The notes under the pieces: model-generated
Seen by the model: the letters and a program-made list of their open reading frames with translations, nothing else
Databases searched by the model: none
What the model was told of the DNA's origin: nothing
Translations under genes and position numbers: made by a program
Shown: piece after piece, positions 1 to 39,497 of the stretch
How the letters are laid out: every line of letters begins with the position of its first letter
Position numbering within the stretch: position 1 is the stretch's first letter
Virus record (IMG/VR): IMGVR_UViG_3300042923_000755
Coordinates: 1 to 40,202 of that record
Length of the DNA: 40,202 nt
From: a virus
Reading direction: 5' to 3' (one strand)

Positions 1-62
1 GTCGCCCCCCTTAATGCGTATAAAGTTCCCCACAGAAAATTTCGGGAAGGAGGTTTTTGTAA
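1..62. other. Probable cos region, left part, and terS leader
   Basis: Begins GTCGCCCCCC, suggesting a GC-rich cohesive end, and ends with the GGAAGGAGG site of terS. I see no clear sigma-A promoter; late transcription may start upstream across the joined ends. Confidence 0.5.
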
Positions 63-599
63 ATGGCTGGAAAAAGGCAACCGATTGATCTGCTGCTCTA
101 CAAGGGAAAAAAGAACCTGACCAAACAGGAGATCGAGACAAGAAAAAAGCAGGAAGTGAAGGCGCCCGCCGATAAAATCCGGGCGCCTTCGTATTTGTCC
201 AAGGAGCATAAGCGGGAATTTGGCAGAATTGCCAAGGAGCTGGAGCGGATCGGCATCATGTCGAACCTGGATGTGGACGCACTGGCCCGGTACATCATTT
301 CCCGGCAGATGTACCTGGATGTCACCGAGGCGCTGCTCAATCGAAAGCCTATTGTGCAGTATGAGGCCAAGGAAAACGACGATGTGGACGGGGAGCTGAT
401 CCCGAACACGACCACTAAGGAGGCAGCCAGCGGCGTATATGCGGACCTGCTGCTGAACCAGGACAAATTGTTTAAGCAATGTCGGCAGGCGGCTTCTGAT
501 CTTGGATTGACCATTGCTTCCCGGTGCCGGTTGGTGATTCCAGAAGGACCGACAAAGGAAGAGCCTTCCGAGTTTGAACAAAAGTTTGGTGATGTCTAA
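63..599 (+). CDS. terS: Terminase small subunit, P27 family
   Basis: 178 aa, probably the DNA-recognition subunit of the packaging motor, which binds near cos and hands DNA to the large subunit. The Lys-rich N-terminus followed by a helical segment with PSYLSKEHKREFGRIAKEL and SNLDVDALARY (about residues 40-82) is typical of P27-type small terminases. The ATG is preceded by GGAAGGAGG with good spacing. Its TAA overlaps the ATG of the large subunit (TAATG), implying translational coupling. It is the first gene of the late operon and sits directly beside the probable cos site. Family call is by sequence pattern and position. Confidence 0.9.
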   Translation: MAGKRQPIDLLLYKGKKNLTKQEIETRKKQEVKAPADKIRAPSYLSKEHKREFGRIAKELERIGIMSNLDVDALARYIISRQMYLDVTEALLNRKPIVQYEAKENDDVDGELIPNTTTKEAASGVYADLLLNQDKLFKQCRQAASDLGLTIASRCRLVIPEGPTKEEPSEFEQKFGDV

Positions 600-2338
600 T
601 GCTGGGCCTAAAACACTGGATGATGAACTATTGTTACGACGTCATTCATGATGATGTGCCAGCGTGCCAGAAGCACAAACAGGCATGTGAACGATTCCTG
701 CGGGATATGGACCGCGCCGGAACCAAGGACTTCCCGTATGTGTTCGATGAAGATCGGGCCATGCGCTTTTTCGAGTGGATGAACCTATTTCGGCACACCA
801 AAGGAGTGCTTAAGGGGGAACGCCTGCAGCCGCATGATATACAGGTCTTTGTCTTTGGGAATGTGTACGGCTGGGTTAACCCTGCCACCGGCTACCGCCG
901 GTTCAGAAAGGCATATTGGCAAGTGGGCCGGAAGAATGCGAAGTCTCAGACGCTGGGATGTGTCGCAACATATGAGGCTATGGCCTTCGGTGAGGGCATG
1001 TCCGAGGTGTATATAGGGGCTACGAAGTCTGAACAAGCCAAGATCGTTTATAAGGAAGCCAGGGCCATGCTTGCAGGCTGCCCGGAGTTGAAGGGGAAAT
1101 GGCGGGAGGCATACGGGAGAATCACACACACAAAAACGGACTCCGTGATACGTGCATTATCCAAAGAGGACCAGAAGACAGGGGACGGCCTCAACCCGCA
1201 GGCGGCCATTATCGACGAATATCACGCCCACCTGACCACGGAAATTTATGACGTCTTGGATTCCGGGATGGTGGCCCGGCCGCAGCCCTTGCTGATGGTC
1301 ATCACCACGGCCGGGGATGTCAGCGGGCCTTGTTACCGCGTGGAATATGATTATGTGTCCCGTCTGCTTGATTCGGCCGACCAAGCCGAGAATGAGCAGT
1401 ATTTTGTCATGGTCAATGAACTGGACAAAGATGAAGATGGGAACCTAATTGATGATATCCGCGATGAAAAGGCTTGGTTAAAGGCAAACCCTATTGCGGC
1501 ATCTTATCCCGAAGGACTGAACAATATACGGGCGCGTATGAACGAAGCGCTGGAGAAGCCGGAAGCCATGGACGACTTTCTAACCAAAAATATGAACGTG
1601 TGGATGGCAACGGGGGAGAAGAAGTACCTGCGGGCCGACCGCTGGAAAGCCTGTGGCGCTTCGGAAGCGAATCCCTTCCCGGAACTGCGCGGCAAACTGG
1701 GGTATTTGGGCGTGGACTTATCATCGAAGATCGACTTAACAAGCGTTGGCTTCGTGTTTCCGCTGGACGATGGGCGTTACGCAGTCCTGGGGCATTCTTT
1801 CATGCCGGAGGAAACCATGCTGCAGCGGGAAAAGAAGGACAAGGTGCCTTACAGTCGCTGGGTGCGGGACGGCTGGCTGACGGCTACACCGGGCGCAGTG
1901 GTGGATTATCGGTTTGTTCAGGCGTATGTCATGGAACAGATCGAGGCGAACGGGTGGAAGGTGCAGGAGAACTGTTTCGACCCGTACAACGCTACTCAGT
2001 TCGCGCAGAACATGGAAACAGAGGGATTCATCCCCGTGGAGATCCGGCAGGGGATAAAAACGCTTGGAGAGCCTACCAAGGCCTTCAGAGATAACGTCCT
2101 TGAAAAGCAAATTATCCATGACAATGATCCTGTTATTGCTTGGGCCTTCGGCAATGCCATCGCTCGGGCAGATCACAATGACAATATCATGCTGGATAAA
2201 CAAAAATCCCGGCAGCGCATTGACCCGGCAGCGTGTATCATCAACGCGTTTGTTCGGGCCATGTTTGATGTTGAAGAGACGTCGGATGATGTATCAGAGT
2301 TCAGCAAAGAAGATTTCTTAAAGAAACTATGGGGCTGA
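599..2338 (+). CDS. terL: Terminase large subunit (packaging ATPase/nuclease)
   Basis: 579 aa, the packaging motor that pumps DNA into the prohead and cuts concatemers. The N-terminal ATPase domain has a deviant Walker A, GRKNAKS, at about 110-116, a Walker B AAIIDE at 202-207 and a TTAG coupling motif at 236-239. The C-terminal nuclease domain starts near 370 with GVDLSSKID, whose Asp373 is the expected first metal ligand. Length and motif spacing are normal for Terminase_1 proteins of HK97-type phages. No frameshift or truncation is visible. Confidence 0.96.
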   Translation: MLGLKHWMMNYCYDVIHDDVPACQKHKQACERFLRDMDRAGTKDFPYVFDEDRAMRFFEWMNLFRHTKGVLKGERLQPHDIQVFVFGNVYGWVNPATGYRRFRKAYWQVGRKNAKSQTLGCVATYEAMAFGEGMSEVYIGATKSEQAKIVYKEARAMLAGCPELKGKWREAYGRITHTKTDSVIRALSKEDQKTGDGLNPQAAIIDEYHAHLTTEIYDVLDSGMVARPQPLLMVITTAGDVSGPCYRVEYDYVSRLLDSADQAENEQYFVMVNELDKDEDGNLIDDIRDEKAWLKANPIAASYPEGLNNIRARMNEALEKPEAMDDFLTKNMNVWMATGEKKYLRADRWKACGASEANPFPELRGKLGYLGVDLSSKIDLTSVGFVFPLDDGRYAVLGHSFMPEETMLQREKKDKVPYSRWVRDGWLTATPGAVVDYRFVQAYVMEQIEANGWKVQENCFDPYNATQFAQNMETEGFIPVEIRQGIKTLGEPTKAFRDNVLEKQIIHDNDPVIAWAFGNAIARADHNDNIMLDKQKSRQRIDPAACIINAFVRAMFDVEETSDDVSEFSKEDFLKKLWG

Positions 2339-2363
2339 CGTTCCGAAGGGAGGGGGTGCATGT

Positions 2364-3761
2364 GTGAGACAGAATTTTTTATCGCGAATGTTTGGTTTTG
2401 GCCGGAGCGAAGCGGAAACGCGGAGTTATGAGGTGGGCCTGAATGACCGGAAGCTGCTGGAGTGGCTGGGTTTGGATGTGGGGCCGGGCGAAGTCAATAT
2501 CAAAGGCTGGAACGCACTGAAGGTGGACACGGTGTATGCCTGCATTAAGGTATTATCAGATGCCATATCTAAGCTGCCGTTAAAGGTGTATCAGGAAGAC
2601 GAATCCGGGATCACCAAGGGCGTGAAACATTACTTGTACAGGCTGCTGAAGCTGCGACCTAACCCTTACATGTCGGCTGCCGACTTCTGGAAGGCCATCG
2701 AGGCGAATAGGGCTATGGGTAACGCCTATGCTTCTATTGAGTTTGATAAGCGGACCGGTAAAGTGGTGGGCCTGTGGCCGATGGATAGCAGCAAAGTTCG
2801 GGTCATTGTGGATGATGCCGGGATCTTGTCGGACCCGACGCTTCGCATTGCGTCCAGCCAGACCCGGTTATGGTACGAAGTGGACATAGGCAACGGTCAA
2901 AAGCGTAAGCTGCTGCCGGACGAGGTGCTGCATTTCAAGGGCAGTATTACCCTGGATGGCTTGGTGGGCGTGCATACGATGGATTATCTGCGAACGTCCG
3001 CCGAAAATGCGGCGTCTGCGGGCAAGTTCATCAATAATTTTTATAAGCAGGGCCTCCAGGTTAAGGGTTTGGTTCAGTATACCGGTGCGCTGGATGAAGG
3101 GTCCAAAAAGGTATTCATTGATAATTTTGAAAGCATGACAGCGGGACTGAAGAACAGTCACCGGGTCGCCATGATGCCTTACGGCTATCAGTTCACGCCG
3201 ATATCTATCAGCATGGCAGATGCACAGTTCCTCCAAAATACAGAGCTGACCTTCAGACAGATTGCCAATGCCTTCGGCGTTAAAATGCACCAACTCAACG
3301 ACTTAGCGAAGGCGACTTATAGCAATGTGGAACAGCAGCAGCTTGCATTCTACTCCGATACGCAGCAGCCGATTCTTACCACCTATGAGCAGGAGCTTTC
3401 TTACAAACTGTTCATGGATTCGGAGCTGGACGACGGGTATTATTGCAAATTTAACGTGGATTCTATCCTTCGCGCCGACCTGAAAACCCGGTATGAAGCC
3501 CATGGCAAGGGAATTGAAAAGGGCTTTATTACCCCGAATGAAGCGCGGGCTGCCGAAGACAAACCGCCGATGCCGGGCGGGGATCAATTGCTCTTCAACG
3601 GCAACGTGATTCCGTTGACCATGGCAGGCCAGCAATACGTGAAGGGGGGTGAAGAAACTGAGCCAGAAGAAGACGAACCCGACTCCGACGAAGGAGAAGC
3701 GGGCAATGCCGGTGAAACTGGAGATCCGGGAGACGGAGGCGACGGAGGAACAGCCGAGTAA
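2364..3761 (+). CDS. Portal protein, HK97 family
   Basis: 465 aa, forms the dodecameric ring at the head vertex through which DNA enters and leaves. The sequence has the family pattern: an early WNALKVDTVYACIKVLSDAISKLPLKVY block (described here by its start, near residue 50), YLYRLLKLRPNPYMSAADFW near 90-110, and a long helical core with NAFGVKMHQLND. The start is GTG with GAAGGGAGGGGG upstream. The last 40 residues are very rich in Glu, Asp and Gly, and this region overlaps the start of the protease gene in another frame. Confidence 0.95.
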   Translation: MRQNFLSRMFGFGRSEAETRSYEVGLNDRKLLEWLGLDVGPGEVNIKGWNALKVDTVYACIKVLSDAISKLPLKVYQEDESGITKGVKHYLYRLLKLRPNPYMSAADFWKAIEANRAMGNAYASIEFDKRTGKVVGLWPMDSSKVRVIVDDAGILSDPTLRIASSQTRLWYEVDIGNGQKRKLLPDEVLHFKGSITLDGLVGVHTMDYLRTSAENAASAGKFINNFYKQGLQVKGLVQYTGALDEGSKKVFIDNFESMTAGLKNSHRVAMMPYGYQFTPISISMADAQFLQNTELTFRQIANAFGVKMHQLNDLAKATYSNVEQQQLAFYSDTQQPILTTYEQELSYKLFMDSELDDGYYCKFNVDSILRADLKTRYEAHGKGIEKGFITPNEARAAEDKPPMPGGDQLLFNGNVIPLTMAGQQYVKGGEETEPEEDEPDSDEGEAGNAGETGDPGDGGDGGTAE

Positions 3762-26363: not shown

Positions 26364-26783
26364 TTATACACGCTGATTATCAATCCCTAAACTCCGTTTC
26401 AGTCCCTCCTGTAGCACCTGACTAAAATTCAAGTGCTGACGCTCTGCTTCGTCATTTAGCCATTTTGGTACTGTTAGTGTCTTTTTGATTGCTCTGGATT
26501 CCATGGCTGCCCGAACGGTTGGCATCCACACTAATACATCTAAAGCGGCTTCTCCGTCTTCTGCCTGCTTCAGGATAGCATCCAGCGGAGAAGGTTCAGG
26601 AATGGTATCCCCATCTTGTTCCATAACATACATAAATCCTTCTAATGCCTCGCGTGCTGCAGCATGTGCTTCTTCAGCCGTATCACCTGCGGTTAGGCAG
26701 CCGGGAAGATCAGGGAAGCGAACGGAGACTCCTTCTTCAGCCGTATGCAGTAGCGACCAAAAGCGGTATACATCTTTTTTCAT
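26364..26783 (-). CDS. hicB: HicB-family antitoxin, pair 1
   Basis: 139 aa. The N-terminal HicB fold has VRFPDLPGCLTAGDTAEEAH and AREALEGFMYVMEQDGDTIP. The C-terminus (KKTLTVPKWLNDEAERQHLN, FSQVLQEGLKRSL) is a ribbon-helix-helix DNA-binding domain. It neutralises the HicA mRNA interferase and represses the operon. AAGGAGG lies upstream. It is downstream of hicA, separated by 38 bases. Confidence 0.92.
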   Translation of the reverse strand: MKKDVYRFWSLLHTAEEGVSVRFPDLPGCLTAGDTAEEAHAAAREALEGFMYVMEQDGDTIPEPSPLDAILKQAEDGEAALDVLVWMPTVRAAMESRAIKKTLTVPKWLNDEAERQHLNFSQVLQEGLKRSLGIDNQRV

Positions 26784-26821
26784 CTATGGTTTAACCTCCT
26801 TGAGGGGAGGGGCTTGCGCCC

Positions 26822-27010
26822 CTACAACCCTGCTGATTTAAGGATACTTGCTTGAGTCTTTGGAGGAAAGCTTTTTCGTGGGTGCGGCACCGTGATCTTA
26901 CCGGGCTTTGTCGGATGTTTGAAGTAATGATGACTGCCGTTTACTCCGATTTCAAACCATCCGTCCTCTTCAAGTAGTTTTATGATTTCTCTTGAACTGT
27001 ATGCCTTCAT
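26822..27010 (-). CDS. hicA: HicA-family toxin, pair 1
   Basis: 62 aa mRNA interferase with a dsRBD-like fold: SSREIIKLLEEDGWFEIGVN, GSHHYFKHPTKPGKITVPHP. The conserved His of GSHH is present, so the toxin looks intact. The ATG at 27010 has AAGGAGGG seven bases upstream; a longer frame to 27040 has no site. It is preceded by a consensus promoter with inverted-repeat operators. Confidence 0.92.
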   Translation of the reverse strand: MKAYSSREIIKLLEEDGWFEIGVNGSHHYFKHPTKPGKITVPHPRKSFPPKTQASILKSAGL

Positions 27011-27031
27011 CTCAACCCTCCTTATACTTCT

Positions 27032-27076
27032 ATTATACACGTATTTATAGTACGTGTCAACGTATTGATTATACGT
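27032..27076 (-). promoter_or_regulatory. hicAB-1 promoter with inverted-repeat operators
   Basis: Minus-strand TTGACA (27055-27060), a 17-base spacer and TATAAT (27032-27037). ACACGTA-N7-TACGTGT (27037-27057) fills the spacer, and ACGTAT-N5-ATACGT (27060-27076) lies upstream of -35. These are probable HicB binding sites. The half-site TACGTGT next to -10 recurs at the second hicAB promoter. Confidence 0.85.
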
Positions 27077-27133
27077 ATTTCGTTGTTCATGAAAAATACC
27101 TTATCCTAAAGCTTCTTTAATGTAGCATAAGAA

Positions 27134-27170
27134 AGAGCCACCATAGGAATAATTCTGGGTGGCTCTTTTT
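27134..27170 (-). terminator. Terminator downstream of hicB2 (bidirectional)
   Basis: Nine-base stem AGAGCCACC/GGTGGCTCT with T-rich sequence on both strands. It insulates the two hicAB operons. The other bases of 27077-27203 hold no gene that I can see. Confidence 0.8.
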
Positions 27171-27203
27171 AATTTCAATAATTTTCGGCCATCACTGGGC
27201 GGG

Positions 27204-27587
27204 TTATTTTCCGCTCAGTTCCTCACGGAGCGCACGCTGTAACACCTGAGAAAAATTCAATCCAGCAATTTCAGCATCTTCGTTTAAATCGCTAGGGATG
27301 GTCAGTGTCTTTTTGACGTAATTCACCTTTTCATTTAAAACCACACTAGCTACAATTGTCCGCTGGTTGCTTTCAAGTTGTAGGTCATTTAATGGAGTAG
27401 GCAACGGGATTACCTCTTTATCCTCTAGGCGGCTTTCAATGGTGAGTTTCAATACTTCGTTTGCGCGTCTAACGGCTTGCTCCACATTATCTGCCTGGGA
27501 GAGGGCTTCATCCAGATCAGGGAAGGAAATTTCAATGTGCTTATCTGTAAAATTCAAGACCGCAGGATACGTATAGCTTTTCTTCAA
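27204..27587 (-). CDS. HicB-family antitoxin, pair 2
   Basis: 127 aa from a TTG at 27587 with AAGGAAGG nine bases upstream; an in-frame ATG at 27629 lacks a binding site. HIEISFPDLDEALSQADNVE matches the HicB core. The C-terminus (KKTLTIPSDLNEDAEIAGLN, FSQVLQRALREEL) is a ribbon-helix-helix domain close to that of pair 1. The core is more divergent than in pair 1. Confidence 0.88.
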   Translation of the reverse strand: MKKSYTYPAVLNFTDKHIEISFPDLDEALSQADNVEQAVRRANEVLKLTIESRLEDKEVIPLPTPLNDLQLESNQRTIVASVVLNEKVNYVKKTLTIPSDLNEDAEIAGLNFSQVLQRALREELSGK

Positions 27588-27602
27588 TTGTATACACCTT
27601 CC

Positions 27603-27626
27603 TTTTTGATTTTTAAAAATCAAAAT
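27603..27626. repeat. AT-rich palindrome between hicA2 and hicB2
   Basis: TTGATTTTTAAAAATCAA and flanks form a perfect AT palindrome just upstream of the hicB2 ribosome binding site. It could fold in the mRNA and tune antitoxin translation or stability. Inference only. Confidence 0.5.
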
Positions 27627-27665
27627 CATTATATATTTATTTATTAAAAAGAGTAAAAGGGGGGG

Positions 27666-27860
27666 CTAGAATTTCAGCCCCGTCTTTTTCTCTATATCCT
27701 TTAGGATATGTATTGCAACATCTTTGACCGGGTGGGTTATGGTAACCTTCCCTTTAATGGTCGGGTGTTTGAGTTGGAAGTGATCGCCCACGGAGTGTAC
27801 TTTATACCACCCGTTTTCATTCAGTATCCTTAACACCTCTCTTGAAGAGTAACTCTTCAT
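27666..27860 (-). CDS. HicA-family toxin, pair 2
   Basis: 64 aa: SSREVLRILNENGWYKVHSV, GDHFQLKHPTIKGKVTITHP. It aligns along its length with HicA of pair 1. The catalytic region reads GDHF instead of GSHH; the His is kept, but the preceding Ser is Asp, so activity may differ. The ATG at 27860 follows AGGAGGTGAGGGAAAGG. Confidence 0.88.
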   Translation of the reverse strand: MKSYSSREVLRILNENGWYKVHSVGDHFQLKHPTIKGKVTITHPVKDVAIHILKDIEKKTGLKF

Positions 27861-27883
27861 CCTTTCCCTCACCTCCTAATAAT

Positions 27884-28588: not shown

Positions 28589-29797
28589 TTAATCCGTAGT
28601 ATCATTGTCCCGTTCCCCTAATGCGACCACATTTGAACCGGTGATTGGATCATCTTTATCCATGAACTCCTCAAAGCGATTTGACCCTTTTTCTTTCACG
28701 CCTTTGGTTACGTGGGTGTAGACGTTCATGGTCATTTTGATATCTGAATGGCCTAAGATGTATTGAACTTCCTTAATTGATGCACCAGCCTCAAACTGCA
28801 ACGAAGCATGGGTATGCCGCAGCCCATGAACCGTAACTGAGTGCAGGTTATGCTTCATTATTAATGCTTCCAGCAGATCATTTAAATAAGCCAGCCTGAG
28901 CGGAGTTACACCATCCTCCCGCGTAAACAGGAATTTAATCGCCCCGTTTCGACCATCGGCTAATTGCTGTTTCTTTTGCATTGTAAGGAGCCGTTTCCAA
29001 AGTTGAAGGGTTTTCTTGTCTGCTGGTAAAACACGCCGTGAAGCGGGCGTCTTTGAGGTTAGAACGTAATACTTACCGTCCTCCCAGTATAGAGTTTTAT
29101 TCAGAGAGACTTGCTTTTGAGGGAAATTTATATCTGTCTCTCCAAGTGCCAGCATCTCACCTTTACGCGGCCCCCTGTATATCAGTGTGTGAAACATTAC
29201 GTAATCTCGAAAAGAACATTCAGCGGCTGCAATAGCAAGAAATTTCTTTACCTCGTGCTTTTCCCAGAAGTTTCGCTCCTCTTCTTCCGGGGCGAAATGT
29301 TGCTCTTCTGCTTTTGGAATTTTGACTTTTTTCATTGGGTTTGTTTTTATAACGTCATTTTCAATTGCAAATTCAAAAATTTGGTTAGCATACATCTTCA
29401 TATTGTCAACGGTCTTTATCTTTTCGGCCATCTTGATAACTACTTCCTGGCAGTATTTCTTAGTGATGTCTTTCATTTTAATTTTGCCGAAGTGGGGAAG
29501 AAGCTGCTGCTTGAATTTTGATTTAACCGCTCTACGTGTTGGCGGCTTCCAGTTAGGTGAATTTGTTTTTGACCACAATAGGTAAACATCCTCAAATGTA
29601 GATTCTTTATCTTTTAGAAATGTTCCTTGGTGAATTTCTGTTTCGGTTTGAGCTGCGTGTAATTGAGCCTCTTTCTTGGTTTTAAAACCGCGTTTCGTTG
29701 AAGGCTTGGCCTTTCCAGTGATAGGATCTATAGGACCGTAATACTTGTACATCCAGCGGGTACCGTCTTTGGTGTCGTATTTCTGAAAGCTGGCCAA
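28589..29797 (-). CDS. int: Tyrosine-type site-specific integrase
   Basis: 402 aa. The N-terminal arm-binding domain (MASFQKYDTKDGTRWMYKYY) is AP2-like, a SAM-like core-binding domain covers about 65-160, and the catalytic domain runs from about 185. Catalytic residues are Arg211 (RGPRKGE), His324 and Arg327 (VHGLRH), His350 (LGHSD) and Tyr360 (NVYTHV). TTG 29797 has AAGGAG eight bases upstream and gives the usual MASFQKY start; GTG 29806 abuts that site. It is transcribed away from the repressor. Confidence 0.94.
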   Translation of the reverse strand: MASFQKYDTKDGTRWMYKYYGPIDPITGKAKPSTKRGFKTKKEAQLHAAQTETEIHQGTFLKDKESTFEDVYLLWSKTNSPNWKPPTRRAVKSKFKQQLLPHFGKIKMKDITKKYCQEVVIKMAEKIKTVDNMKMYANQIFEFAIENDVIKTNPMKKVKIPKAEEQHFAPEEEERNFWEKHEVKKFLAIAAAECSFRDYVMFHTLIYRGPRKGEMLALGETDINFPQKQVSLNKTLYWEDGKYYVLTSKTPASRRVLPADKKTLQLWKRLLTMQKKQQLADGRNGAIKFLFTREDGVTPLRLAYLNDLLEALIMKHNLHSVTVHGLRHTHASLQFEAGASIKEVQYILGHSDIKMTMNVYTHVTKGVKEKGSNRFEEFMDKDDPITGSNVVALGERDNDTTD

Positions 29798-29809
29798 AAT
29801 CCTCACTCC

Positions 29810-30769: not shown

Positions 30770-31141
30770 TTATTTATCGTCTTCAGAAGCGCGTTTAATA
30801 ATCTCCCAGACTTTCCGTAAATCCTTGATTCTTTCCTCAGGAGCTTTCAACAATTCTTTAAAAAACAAATTGTTATCAGGATCATTGATAAAGGCTTCAA
30901 ACTCAGTTTGATCCTTAGTTTTATTGTCTGATGAACTTTCAAGAAGGGAATCTATAGAAACATCAAAAAAATCGGCAATTATCCGAACAGCTTCCATTTT
31001 AGGGTCAGTTAAGTTATTTTCCCAACGAGAAACCATACTCTTACTAAAAGTAGTATTGTATCTATTGTTAATTTCGTTTACGAACTGGTCAATACTCAAT
31101 TTTCTATCTGACCTAAGTTTCTTTAAGAGATCACCAAACAT
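30770..31141 (-). CDS. CI-like lysogeny repressor (XRE family)
   Basis: 123 aa. The N-terminal helix-turn-helix spans about 1-67 (MFGDLLKKLRSDRKLSIDQF, SKSMVSRWENNLTDPKMEAV). The C-terminal half is acidic and helical and probably dimerises or is the protease target. It has no RecA-type autocleavage domain, consistent with the neighbouring ImmA-like protease doing that job. It diverges from the Cro-like gene across operator sites. Confidence 0.87.
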   Translation of the reverse strand: MFGDLLKKLRSDRKLSIDQFVNEINNRYNTTFSKSMVSRWENNLTDPKMEAVRIIADFFDVSIDSLLESSSDNKTKDQTEFEAFINDPDNNLFFKELLKAPEERIKDLRKVWEIIKRASEDDK

Positions 31142-31191: not shown

Positions 31192-31207
31192 GTTCCTATT
31201 ATGCAAC
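31192..31207. promoter_or_regulatory. Operator-like site O1
   Basis: GTTCCTATTATGCAAC, 13 of 16 positions shared with GTTCCTTTTAAGGAAC. It lies near the expected repressor promoter. Confidence 0.55.
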
Positions 31208-31222
31208 AAATATATAAACTTT

Positions 31223-31238
31223 ATTCCTTTACGGGAAC
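31223..31238. promoter_or_regulatory. Operator-like site O2
   Basis: ATTCCTTTACGGGAAC, an imperfect copy of the palindrome, 31 bases (about three helical turns) from O1 and just upstream of the early -35. Confidence 0.65.
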
Positions 31239-31247
31239 AAAAATGTA

Positions 31248-31276
31248 TTGACATAGTTTATTTACTCGTTTAATCT
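31248..31276 (+). promoter_or_regulatory. Early promoter PR for the Cro-like gene
   Basis: TTGACA (31248-31253), a 17-base spacer and TAATCT (31271-31276). It is flanked by O2 upstream and O3 downstream, so repressor bound at either site should block it. Confidence 0.85.
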
Positions 31277-31282
31277 GATGTT

Positions 31283-31298
31283 GTTCCTTAAAAGGAAC
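31283..31298. promoter_or_regulatory. Operator O3, perfect palindrome
   Basis: GTTCCTTAAAAGGAAC, arms GTTCCTT/AAGGAAC, placed over the transcription start of PR. Confidence 0.82.
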
Positions 31299-31314
31299 GT
31301 GAGGAGGGGATGAC

Positions 31315-31584
31315 GTGGCAGGTATGTCACCAAAGATAGTCAGAAGAAGGCAACCTTATAGCAAAATTAAGGTTTATCTGTATCAAAATAATATTCCGCA
31401 GGTTGAAGTTGGTGCGGCTATCGGTAAGACCAGCAGCGCAATTAATCAAAAACTGAACGGAACTGGAGGTGATTTTTCACTAAGCGAAGCAAGAATACTA
31501 TGTGAGAAATTCGGCATACCAAAGGAATTTTTTTTTGAATTGGACGTTCCTTTTAAGGAACGAAATAAACTGGATGGTGAATAA
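31315..31584 (+). CDS. Cro-like XRE regulator (DUF739-like)
   Basis: 89 aa. Helix-turn-helix YSKIKVYLYQNNIPQVEVGA, AIGKTSSAINQKLNGTGGDF, then SLSEARILCEKFGIPKEFFF matches small Cro-type regulators of Firmicute phages. GTG start with AGGAGG seven bases upstream. Its 3' end contains a perfect copy of the operator palindrome (31546-31561) that encodes VPFKERN. Confidence 0.85.
   Translation: MAGMSPKIVRRRQPYSKIKVYLYQNNIPQVEVGAAIGKTSSAINQKLNGTGGDFSLSEARILCEKFGIPKEFFFELDVPFKERNKLDGE
31546..31561. promoter_or_regulatory. Operator O4 inside the cro coding end
   Basis: GTTCCTTTTAAGGAAC, a perfect palindrome 263 bases from O3. It may act as a roadblock or a looping partner site. Confidence 0.75.
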
Positions 31585-38135: not shown

Positions 38136-38160
38136 AAGCCCGGCATTATTCACCGGGCTT
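38136..38160 (-). terminator. Terminator of cassette B, inside the HTH gene end
   Basis: AAGCCCGG/CCGGGCTT stem with a nine-base loop holding the stop codon; minus-strand tail CTTTCTTTATG. The same stem and loop end cassette A. The gap 38045-38135 between the sigma-like gene and this terminator holds no other gene. Confidence 0.82.
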
Positions 38161-38391
38161 GTCCTTCTTCATATGGTATGCCTGAGCGGCTTCCTTCCGC
38201 TCCAAGCACTCCGACCGAAGGAACCAACGTTCCCGGCCGGTGTCTTTTATGGGAACCAACTTTCCTGACTTCACAAACTTGTGAAGATTCTGGCGGCTGC
38301 ACTCCATAAGCTCCATAGCTTCCGAAGTACTAAGCAATTCTGTGGTGACAAAATCAACAAGTGATTGCCTATCCTTAAAGGGACCAATCAT
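38146..38391 (-). CDS. Excisionase/MerR-type DNA-binding protein, cassette B
   Basis: 81 aa. TSEAMELMECSRQNLHKFVK, SGKLVPIKDTGRERWFLRSE, LERKEAAQAY is a compact HTH_17/excisionase-type domain. About two thirds identical to the cassette A copy. Its ATG overlaps the stop of membrane peptide B2 (ATGA), so the two are co-translated. Its last codons form the terminator stem. Probable regulator or antitoxin of the cassette; this role is inferred from coupling and duplication. Confidence 0.82.
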   Translation of the reverse strand: MIGPFKDRQSLVDFVTTELLSTSEAMELMECSRQNLHKFVKSGKLVPIKDTGRERWFLRSECLERKEAAQAYHMKKDKPGE

Positions 38392-38483
38392 GTCATTATG
38401 TTGATCACGACAGCAGCCACATTAATAACAAGGGCAGCGATACTGAACCAAAGAGCTAAGGACAGTTTACGGTCTATAGACAT
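38388..38483 (-). CDS. Membrane micro-peptide B2
   Basis: 31 aa, starting MSIDRKLSLALWFSIAALVI and ending INIMT: one hydrophobic helix from about residue 7 after a short charged start. AAAGGAAG lies about nine bases upstream. Stop overlaps the HTH start. Equivalent in position to A2 in the other cassette, with similar design but low identity. Confidence 0.7.
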   Translation of the reverse strand: MSIDRKLSLALWFSIAALVINVAAVVINIMT

Positions 38484-38501
38484 GTGATCAGCTTCCTTTC
38501 G

Positions 38502-38510
38502 TGGTATAAT
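38502..38510 (+). promoter_or_regulatory. Possible antisense promoter (extended -10), cassette B
   Basis: Plus-strand TGG TATAAT with a weak -35 (ATGTGA, 17 bases upstream). Reads toward the hairpins and the 3' end of peptide B1 from the opposite strand. An extended -10 occurs at the same relative place in cassette A. Confidence 0.4.
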
Positions 38511-38553
38511 CAAGAAGAGAAGAACGACCCTTTGATTTTCACTGGAACCCATT

Positions 38554-38599
38554 GGGAGCCTTGCGGCTCCCGCCGGGTCTCTGATTTAATGAATCAGAG
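38554..38599 (-). other. Two RNA hairpins between B1 and B2
   Basis: In the minus-strand RNA, CTCTGATT/AATCAGAG with a five-base loop (38579-38599) spans the B1 stop codon. GGGAGCC-GCAA-GGCTCCC (38554-38571) follows, a 7-bp stem with a GNRA tetraloop and no T run. Confidence 0.75.
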
Positions 38600-38705
38600 C
38601 AGTGATGAGGTTGATGAACGCGGCGATCAAGCTGATGGTGGCACCCACAAGCACGATCTTTGCTACTCGTTCATCCCGTCGTTCTTCTTTTCTTGTTTTT
38701 CGCAT
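38586..38705 (-). CDS. Membrane micro-peptide B1
   Basis: 39 aa, starting MRKTRKEERRDERVAKIVLV: a strongly charged N-terminus, then one hydrophobic helix (ATISLIAAFINLITALIH). AAAGGAGGTG precedes the ATG. It has its own strong promoter. Same design and partly the same sequence as A1 (TRKE, then ISLI and LI repeats). Resembles type I toxin or small holin-like peptides in layout only. Confidence 0.8.
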   Translation of the reverse strand: MRKTRKEERRDERVAKIVLVGATISLIAAFINLITALIH

Positions 38706-38731
38706 ATTGTTCACCTCCTTTCTATACTTTA

Positions 38732-38760
38732 ATTATATCATGATGGATTACAAAAGTCAA
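38732..38760 (-). promoter_or_regulatory. Cassette B promoter
   Basis: Minus-strand TTGACT, 17 bases, TATAAT with TGA just before it (extended -10). GATGG/CCATC inverted repeat spans the -35 and spacer. Confidence 0.85.
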
Positions 38761-38810
38761 CCATCTATTTAGATTATTTAGGGTTTTTAGTGTAATTTAA
38801 CCATATAAAA

Positions 38811-38835
38811 AAGCCCGGCATCATTCACCGGGCTT
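38811..38835 (-). terminator. Terminator of cassette A, inside the HTH gene end
   Basis: AAGCCCGG/CCGGGCTT with a nine-base loop, followed on the minus strand by six T. Nearly the same as 38136-38160. Confidence 0.88.
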
Positions 38836-39069
38836 GTCCGCTTTAGGTTTGCGATTATATATGCTGGCCGCCTCTCTCCGTTCCAGCACATCGGTACGAT
38901 AGAATAGACGTTCGCGGCCAGTGTCCTTAATCGGCACGAGCTTTCCACTCTGAACGAAATAATGGAGATTCTGGCGGCTACAATTCATTATCTCCATTGC
39001 TTCAGAGGTGCCGACAACTTCCCGGGCTATCCATTCTGACAATTCTTCTTTGCTGTTAAAAGTGTACAT
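38821..39069 (-). CDS. Excisionase/MerR-type DNA-binding protein, cassette A
   Basis: 82 aa. TSEAMEIMNCSRQNLHYFVQ, SGKLVPIKDTGRERLFYRTD, LERREAASIY parallels the cassette B protein; both end DKPGE. The ATG at 39069 shares TAATG with the stop of peptide A2, so I prefer it to the upstream GTG at 39075. Variation is concentrated at the N-terminus, while the putative recognition region (CSRQNLH) is kept, so both copies may bind similar DNA. Confidence 0.82.
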   Translation of the reverse strand: MYTFNSKEELSEWIAREVVGTSEAMEIMNCSRQNLHYFVQSGKLVPIKDTGRERLFYRTDVLERREAASIYNRKPKADKPGE

Positions 39070-39155
39070 TACCACTTCACCGCCAGAATAATCAGGTTAA
39101 TGATACTAATGACCAGTGTGGCATACGTTACCATATTCGTGGTCTTTTGAGTCAT
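39069..39155 (-). CDS. Membrane micro-peptide A2
   Basis: 28 aa, MTQKTTNMVTYATLVISIIN then a hydrophobic end and VKW. AGGAG lies nine bases upstream. Stop and HTH start share TAATG. Counterpart of B2. Confidence 0.7.
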   Translation of the reverse strand: MTQKTTNMVTYATLVISIINLIILAVKW

Positions 39156-39176
39156 ATTTAATCACTCCTGTTATTA

Positions 39177-39185
39177 TGATATACT
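39177..39185 (+). promoter_or_regulatory. Possible antisense promoter (extended -10), cassette A
   Basis: Plus-strand TGA TATACT, with a weak -35 (TTTAAT, 17 bases upstream). Same relative position as the one in cassette B. Confidence 0.35.
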
Positions 39186-39224
39186 GGAAGAAAGACAGCC
39201 CTTGTTATTCATCCCCTACCGCCT

Positions 39225-39271
39225 GGCCCCTTGCGGGGCCGAGGTTTCGGGTTTCACTACTTCAGCAGTAG
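39225..39271 (-). other. RNA hairpins between A1 and A2
   Basis: In the minus-strand RNA, CTACT/AGTAG (39257-39271) spans the A1 stop codon. GGCCCC-GCAA-GGGGCC (39225-39240) has the same GNRA tetraloop as cassette B. A small CCGA/TCGG stem (39239-39250) lies between. Confidence 0.75.
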
Positions 39272-39373
39272 CTTGATGAGGGTGAGGATTTGGACAATCA
39301 AGCTGATGATGCCAGTCACCGACTTGATTTTGTTGTCCCTTTCCTCTTTCTGTCTTTCTTTCCTTGTCTTCAT
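39257..39373 (-). CDS. Membrane micro-peptide A1
   Basis: 38 aa, starting MKTRKERQKEERDNKIKSVT, then a helix GIISLIVQILTLIKLLLK. AAGGAGGTG lies eight bases upstream of ATG 39373. Counterpart of B1. Alternation of charged N-terminus and single Leu/Ile helix is typical of membrane-acting micro-peptides. Confidence 0.8.
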   Translation of the reverse strand: MKTRKERQKEERDNKIKSVTGIISLIVQILTLIKLLLK

Positions 39374-39396
39374 TATCATCACCTCCTTATATATAC

Positions 39397-39425
39397 ATTA
39401 TAGCATATACTTTTACCATAGTCAA
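39397..39425 (-). promoter_or_regulatory. Cassette A promoter
   Basis: Minus-strand TTGACT, 17 bases, TATAAT with TGC just before it (extended -10). Same -35, spacing and -10 as cassette B. Confidence 0.87.
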
Positions 39426-39497
39426 ATAATATCTTCTTGAAGTCTGGTCATTTGATCGGGCTTTTTTGCTGTCCACTAACAGGAAAGGGTGAAGAGA

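Follow-up and report, generated by a model that had tools for sequence, protein, structure and literature searches.

What is the function of the two tandem minus-strand units, each coding for two membrane micro-peptides and a helix-turn-helix (HTH) protein, that lie near one end of the virus record IMGVR_UViG_3300042923_000755 (positions 1 to 40,202, here the window), a record that has a gene block in common with a Paenibacillus prophage, L079? Reading of both strands between 38136 and 39440 showed two units (A and B; Table 1) that follow one order: promoter, first micro-peptide gene (P1), hairpin, second micro-peptide gene (P2), HTH gene overlapping P2, and terminator. The reading favoured here, to which a probability of about 0.6 may be given, is that each unit is a type I toxin-antitoxin (TA)-like module on the plan of the yonT/SR6/yoyJ locus, with an added HTH protein serving as autorepressor. 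A first-pass annotation of this DNA had offered three possible roles, superinfection exclusion, TA behaviour and control of the host membrane state; the second is now picked out by a conserved antisense promoter and its terminators, a basis on which that annotation did not draw.

Most of the architecture that the first-pass annotation had described held on closer reading: the shared part order, whose plan recurs in dozens of loci, the TG-bearing promoters, the lengths of all four peptides and the terminators formed by the HTH 3' ends are as listed in Table 1. The two sense promoters are the best of seven promoter-like sites in the region (shuffle mean 3.4 sites), the P1 ribosome sites of both units read AGGAGGTG, and the HTH start overlaps the P2 stop as TAATG in unit A and as ATGA in unit B. 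The hairpins stood in part. Both types can be seen in the window, but the one at the P1 stop codon is not conserved in relatives such as L008, and the GCAA tetraloop, present in both units, is not what persists elsewhere, since relatives keep a hairpin and not its loop sequence. The HTH proteins, which had been called highly similar, share only 56-62% identity.

Searches anchored on the HTH gene, made in viral contigs, species genomes, phage records and plasmids, yielded 56 different HTH loci (designated by L numbers), and in 39 of them a P1-P2-HTH cassette could be read upstream. The aligned cassettes come from phages or prophages of Paenibacillus, Lysinibacillus, Psychrobacillus, Parageobacillus and Clostridium, and four further ones lie on plasmids of Bacillus velezensis, Anoxybacillus (two) and Desulfosporosinus. 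Lack of conservation of the peptide frames or hairpins next to HTH homologues had been named as a refuting outcome and did not occur: the frames are kept in the 39 cassettes, and a hairpin in nearly all of them. P1, P2 and HTH are all under purifying selection, with ratios of nonsynonymous to synonymous polymorphism (pN/pS) below 0.7 (0.15-0.67, mostly 0.2-0.4), the values for P1 spanning 0.28-0.67. In all 39 cassettes P1 combines a hydrophobic stretch with an AGGAGG-type Shine-Dalgarno (SD) sequence, as type I TA peptides do. Three peptide designs can be distinguished: (i) a charged N-terminus followed by a membrane helix, in Paenibacillus, Clostridium and this window; (ii) a membrane helix followed by a charged tail with a DTTSKK end, in Lysinibacillus; and (iii) a membrane helix followed, in most cases, by a strongly basic tail such as KKKRRSPRKGKRRK, in Psychrobacillus, Parageobacillus and B. 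velezensis, where P2 is also longer (about 54-63 amino acids).

In at least eight loci (L045, L048, L056, L058, L063, L066, L070 and L072) P1 is missing or broken while the HTH frame is intact, as would be expected if P1 is a toxin. This pattern also bears on another explanation, in which P1 and P2 would be lysogenic-conversion membrane peptides acting in superinfection exclusion or control of the host membrane, and the antisense RNA and HTH protein would only tune their dose. Strong sense promoters and ribosome sites, an operon of their own opposed to the late genes, and a membrane-peptide design retained despite sequence drift would all suit such peptides; loss of P1 with retention of HTH would, however, be odd for a useful exclusion gene, and the antisense-controlled layout matches that of a demonstrated toxin locus, so that this explanation seems unlikely.

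Some of the collected loci depart from the plan in other ways. Upstream of the HTH gene at position 1500 of L063 there follow a P1 promoter, an operator-like palindrome and a ribosome site, and then, nearly directly, the HTH gene; P1 and P2 are deleted, and by its layout the locus is a natural knockout that keeps HTH. Clostridium sp. OS1-26 carries two near-identical single cassettes (L012 and L013) 3.5 Mb apart on one chromosome, and the sense promoter of L013 is damaged (TTGATG...TGTAGC). In phage phi OH2 (L006, 2501-3733) an HTH relative is fused to a DprA/Smf protein.

The cassettes also contain a predicted antisense transcription unit. In the P1-P2 gap, between the hairpin and P2, the strand that does not code for the genes carries an extended -10 consensus, TGNTATAAT, with at least seven of its eight bases in 23 of the 39 cassettes, against 1/39 on the sense strand and a shuffle mean of about 5.2, a comparison that, like that of operator covariation below, overstates independence, the loci being related to one another. 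A terminator for the predicted RNA is placed according to subtype. In subtype (i), that of the window, it lies upstream of the P1 promoter, 85-103 nucleotides upstream of P1 and with differing sequences, in L008, L010, L011, L023, both units of L043, L044, L046 and unit A; a shorter form of the unit A RNA could end near 39337. In subtypes (ii) and (iii) it lies within the 3' part of the P1 frame itself (for example GCGACG...CGTCGC followed by TTTTTGT), and in all 13 loci tested in the Lysinibacillus and YonT-like subtypes these in-frame terminators are stronger than those of synonymous recodings of the same peptides (fraction 0-0.05 each). Moreover, P1 has the slowest synonymous sites in every group (for example 0.13, vs 0.36 for P2 and 0.75 for HTH), and the P1-P2 gap is near-invariant as far as the antisense start and variable past that point, which together make the footprint that would be expected of an overlapping RNA gene. 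At the level of sequence, an antisense RNA gene with its own promoter and terminator over the toxin mRNA, the mark of type I TA systems, is present, and we infer that it is transcribed. A conserved pyrimidine tract after the hairpin was also considered as a sequestering partner of the P1 SD sequence and was rejected as inconsistent across loci.

The closest described counterpart is the type I TA locus yonT/SR6/yoyJ of prophage SPbeta (Reif et al. 2018, PMC5848175; Durand et al. 2012, PMC3531473). There, the toxin YonT has 58 amino acids and a basic tail; SR6, an antisense RNA of approximately 100 nucleotides, is transcribed from an extended -10 promoter in the 54-nucleotide yonT-yoyJ gap and triggers decay of the yonT mRNA by RNase III; yoyJ, carried by that same mRNA, encodes a further, weaker toxin; and typical terminators are missing after yonT and yoyJ (PMC5848175; PMC3531473). 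Both psr6 and pyonT have extended -10 boxes (PMC5848175), and psr6, TGTTATAAT, lies at the place that matches the antisense extended -10 of the cassettes. The cassettes share with this locus a polycistronic mRNA bearing a first and a second small membrane peptide gene, an antisense promoter with an extended -10 and a hairpin, both in the intervening gap, a co-transcribed downstream gene, a very strong P1 SD sequence and a prophage location; in the YonT-like subtype P1 even ends in a basic tail (KKKRR..KRRK), and the antisense terminator lies within the codons of that tail. Unlike the cassettes, SPbeta has YonU after yoyJ and no HTH gene, and yonT is without a palindrome over its promoter. In subtype (i), by contrast, the antisense RNA probably extends past the P1 promoter, and in the window P2 is a single helix of 28-31 amino acids and not an 83-amino-acid protein, and the units stand in tandem.

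Besides the relatedness of the loci mentioned above, several results weigh against assigning the cassettes to this plan. When profiles of the three subtypes were run against the SPbeta stretch, YonT and YoyJ were not among the top open reading frames, and P1 and P2 show no detectable homology to curated type I toxin families. In these cassettes the predicted antisense RNA begins upstream of the P2 start codon and its SD sequence (in unit A at 39192, with P2 starting at 39155), so that direct masking of the P2 ribosome site, the mechanism suggested for yoyJ, would not be anticipated. For unit B a convincing antisense terminator could not be placed, and in the Lysinibacillus subtype the extended -10 is mostly missing, only TTGTATAAC/TTGTATAAT-like boxes being found. 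Finally, when equal segments are compared, strong structure is predicted for either strand and more of it for the sense strand (z -6.0 vs -4.9), and folding therefore does not favour an antisense RNA; an apparent strand asymmetry had come from unequal segments, reversed on equal ones, and was dropped as proof. On present evidence, then, the cassette would work like yonT/SR6/yoyJ, while membership by descent is not supported by peptide homology.

Searches with the peptides themselves were of little help. P1 and P2 gave nothing reaching cutoff in Pfam, NCBIfam or PHROGs; the best score against Hol_Tox (PF16935) was 14.3 bits for a cutoff of 23.3, from one Clostridium P1 only (E 0.037), with no match for the window peptides, and an Rfam search returned chance-level matches only. 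No match was obtained by tblastn of P1-A or of a YonT-like P1 against phage records, since the peptides are too short and too diverged; the usable handle is the HTH gene. A DNA match in phage Goe8 was rejected, since it consists only of a similar strong promoter and ribosome site. As in TxpA/RatA, BsrG/SR4, BsrE/SR5, the Clostridium type I modules and Pfam Hol-Tox, the cassette joins a short hydrophobic toxin-like peptide to a convergent antisense RNA in a prophage location, but unlike those Gram-positive systems as described it adds a second peptide and a co-transcribed DNA-binding protein and matches no family cutoff. No published description of such cassettes was found in the open-licence literature.

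The second layer of control would act on the promoter. A 26-bp palindrome, TATCTATTKAC-N4-GTMAATAGATA, covers the -35 box and spacer in all but a few P1 promoters, with a mean of 7.8 of 11 arm pairs across loci against 2.9 when other centres of those loci are taken. The arm sequences covary from locus to locus: the outer arms pair in 118 of 180 instances, vs 86.6 +/- 5.5 when the right arms are randomly dealt, and none of 5000 deals reaches the observed value, a significance overstated by the relatedness of the loci. In unit B the outer arms (GATGG...CCATC) are unlike those of unit A and are still complementary to each other. Lying upstream of the P1 mRNA start, the palindrome is most readily interpreted as a site in DNA. 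It overlies the -35 box in both units, so that each promoter, which the first-pass annotation had thought probably active in lysogens, is probably kept repressed by HTH from the same cassette and not simply on. The HTH proteins match HTH_17 (PF12728) and PHROG 4691 ('excisionase'), and the AlphaFold model of HTH has a predicted local distance difference test score of 87.8; in Foldseek it resembles the MerR-type regulators CvkR, GlnR, NmlR and BldC at E about 0.01-0.05, values that indicate fold class only. The protein is presumably a dimer, and autorepression at the palindrome is the natural inference.

It might instead be that the module is indeed type I-like and that its operator is read by a host regulator or a phage repressor, HTH acting elsewhere. 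Such an arrangement would be compatible with the data in so far as binding of the operator by HTH is deduced from sequence, but it appears quite improbable: the exact motif TTKACN4GTMAA occurs once in the window, at unit A; SPbeta yonT, which has no HTH gene, also has no palindrome, which counts for the pairing of operator and HTH; and control by the phage CI repressor was rejected because the CI/Cro region has another palindrome (GTTCC...GGAAC) and lacks the cassette operator. The GTTCCTTAAAAGGAAC-type palindromes of that region are repeated at 31193-31300, between the CI-like (30770-31141) and Cro-like (31315-31584) genes, and occur again within the Cro-like gene (31548-31563); they are likely the lysis-lysogeny operators.

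The fold of the HTH protein raises a further alternative, that it is a phage excisionase (Xis) and that the small frames are leader peptides or attenuators. The protein does have the HTH_17/excise-type winged-helix fold and the excisionase annotation of PHROG 4691, the excise-domain model TIGR01764 gives a weak match below cutoff, and RdfS and Pukovnik Xis are within the Foldseek matches; MerR, GlnR and BldC folds, however, outrank Xis there. The integrase (28589-29806) is about 8 kb away and not beside a single linked gene, one phage carries two different HTH genes, one plasmid copy lies in a stretch without an annotated integrase, a dyad operator covers the promoter, and P1 and P2 are under selection at the protein level, all of which makes an excisionase very improbable. 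The window HTH shares its winged-helix fold class with the small PHROG 4691/HTH_17 proteins and with MerR-type regulators (CvkR, HiNmlR, GlnR, BldC), but unlike them it is fixed to a toxin-like operon, and the excisionase label is an annotation only.

Under the TA-like reading, a single sense mRNA would encode P1, the presumed main toxin, P2 and HTH. The antisense RNA, made from the promoter in the P1-P2 gap back over the hairpin and P1, would pair with the P1 mRNA and, by analogy with SR6, expose it to RNase III, whose cleavage might also free the P2-HTH portion of the message, while HTH would bind the palindrome over the P1 -35 box and shut off the operon that encodes it. Were the element lost, or were a disturbance to lower antisense RNA or repressor, the peptides would be released and would damage the membrane, and this release may stabilise the prophage or limit competing phages.

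Table 1. Features of units A and B in the 40,202-nucleotide window.
Feature	Position	Strand	Remarks
Unit A, whole cassette	39431-38811	-	
Unit A palindromic operator, TATTATTTGAC-TATG-GTAAAAGTATA	39406..39431	-	8/11 arm pairs vs 2.7 background in the same locus
Unit A sense promoter, TTGACT-N17-TATAAT with TG	39425-39397	-	11/12 match
Unit A P1, 38 amino acids, MKTRKERQKEERDNKIKSVTGIISLIVQILTLIKLLLK	39257..39373 (ATG 39373)	-	frame retained in L010, L046, L008 and others; pN/pS 0.28
Unit A GCAA/UUGC-loop hairpin, P1-P2 gap	39225..39240	both	hairpin in nearly all cassettes, sequences unrelated
Unit A P2, 28 amino acids, MTQKTTNMVTYATLVISIINLIILAVKW	39069..39155	-	pN/pS 0.29 among close relatives
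Unit A HTH, 82 amino acids, MerR/GlnR-like winged helix, presumed autorepressor	38821..39069 (ATG 39069)	-	PF12728, PHROG 4691, AlphaFold, Foldseek
Unit A sense terminator, from HTH 3' end	38811..38835	-	10-bp stem
Unit A antisense promoter, extended -10 TGATATACT	39177..39185	+	7/8 consensus; predicted RNA start about 39192
Unit A predicted antisense RNA, up to about 276 nucleotides	39192..39467	+	fold z -3.4; upstream terminator position conserved in type (i) loci
Unit A antisense intrinsic terminator, GAAGTCTGGTCATTTGATCGGGCTTTTTT	39439..39467	+	homologous or analogous terminators in L008, L010, L011, L023, L043, L044, L046
Unit B, whole cassette	38766-38136	-	
Unit B palindromic operator, AGATGGTTGAC-TTTT-GTAATCCATCA	38741..38766	-	8/11 arm pairs
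Unit B sense promoter, TTGACT-N17-TATAAT with TG	38760-38732	-	11/12 match
Unit B P1, 39 amino acids, MRKTRKEERRDERVAKIVLVGATISLIAAFINLITALIH	38586..38705 (ATG 38705)	-	74% identity to L021 P1, 56% to L022 P1
Unit B GCAA-loop hairpin, P1-P2 gap	38554..38571	.	gap fold z -4.0
Unit B P2, 31 amino acids, MSIDRKLSLALWFSIAALVINVAAVVINIMT	38388..38480	-	open reading frame; cassette alignment
Unit B HTH, 81 amino acids	38146..38391 (ATG 38391)	-	PF12728 E 8e-7; PHROG 4691 E 2e-22
Unit B sense terminator, from HTH 3' end	38136..38160	-	10-bp stem
Unit B antisense promoter, extended -10 TGGTATAAT	38502..38510	+	8/8 consensus; 0/200 shuffles; predicted RNA start about 38517

The two units had been taken for a duplicated cassette, and a simple tandem duplication was rejected, since the nearest relatives of P1 and of HTH differ between A and B. 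P1-B is 74% identical to the P1 of L021 and 45% to P1-A; between P1-A and the P1 of L046 the identity is 90%, while the L046 HTH shows only 64%. The Paenibacillus prophage L079, whose DNA is 87-91% identical to that of the window in the terminase genes, the late regulator and parts of the early region, also has two units in the same slot, between a sigma-like late regulator and the genes for a 94-amino-acid protein, HNH and terminase; their contents are different, the second HTH being 94% identical to HTH-A and the adjoining peptides only distant (about 40%). Judged from these comparisons, units A and B are divergent mosaics and not a recent duplication. The neighbours of the cassette elsewhere are phage genes too (terminases, an ArpU-type regulator, endolysin), and in Paenibacillus larvae phages HicAB TA genes lie at the genome end of the late regulator and HNH (PMC6070908), so that the slot may be a habitual place for such modules.

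The window contains a further pair of candidate modules, at 26364-27872 on the minus strand beside a tyrosine integrase (28589-29806), where two tandem hicB-hicA-like pairs were assigned by eye from translations (HicB-like 26364-26783 and 27204-27629; HicA-like 26822-27040 and 27666-27872); the phage seems to carry two kinds of TA module, both doubled. Positions 1-3515 of the window correspond to 31-3547 of L079, where the two window ends are adjacent (40202 and 1 falling at 3547 and 3545), so that the record has the appearance of a complete phage genome, opened between the genes for HNH and for the small terminase.

A wider suggestion, possible but to be held tentatively, is that such cassettes form a Bacillota-wide class of mobile-element toxins under double control, by an antisense RNA on the message and by a winged-helix repressor on the promoter, whose parts reassort freely and which may stand as tandem arrays in a fixed slot between late regulator and terminase, serving as a switch against competitors; the operator copies of an incoming related phage would titrate the resident repressor and so make the module responsive. 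Type I TA genes have mostly been found singly, the toxin and the RNA being too small for annotation, and here a recognisable HTH gene marks the locus, which allows the family to be collected systematically across phages, prophages and plasmids. This would extend to a large family what has so far been studied at essentially a single locus, yonT/SR6/yoyJ, and would give a type I system a protein partner that controls the promoter. The pairs of modules within one phage would offer a natural test of how two antisense-controlled toxins avoid cross-talk, and the question of what benefit prophage type I toxins bring to the phage would become testable in laboratory Bacillus hosts.

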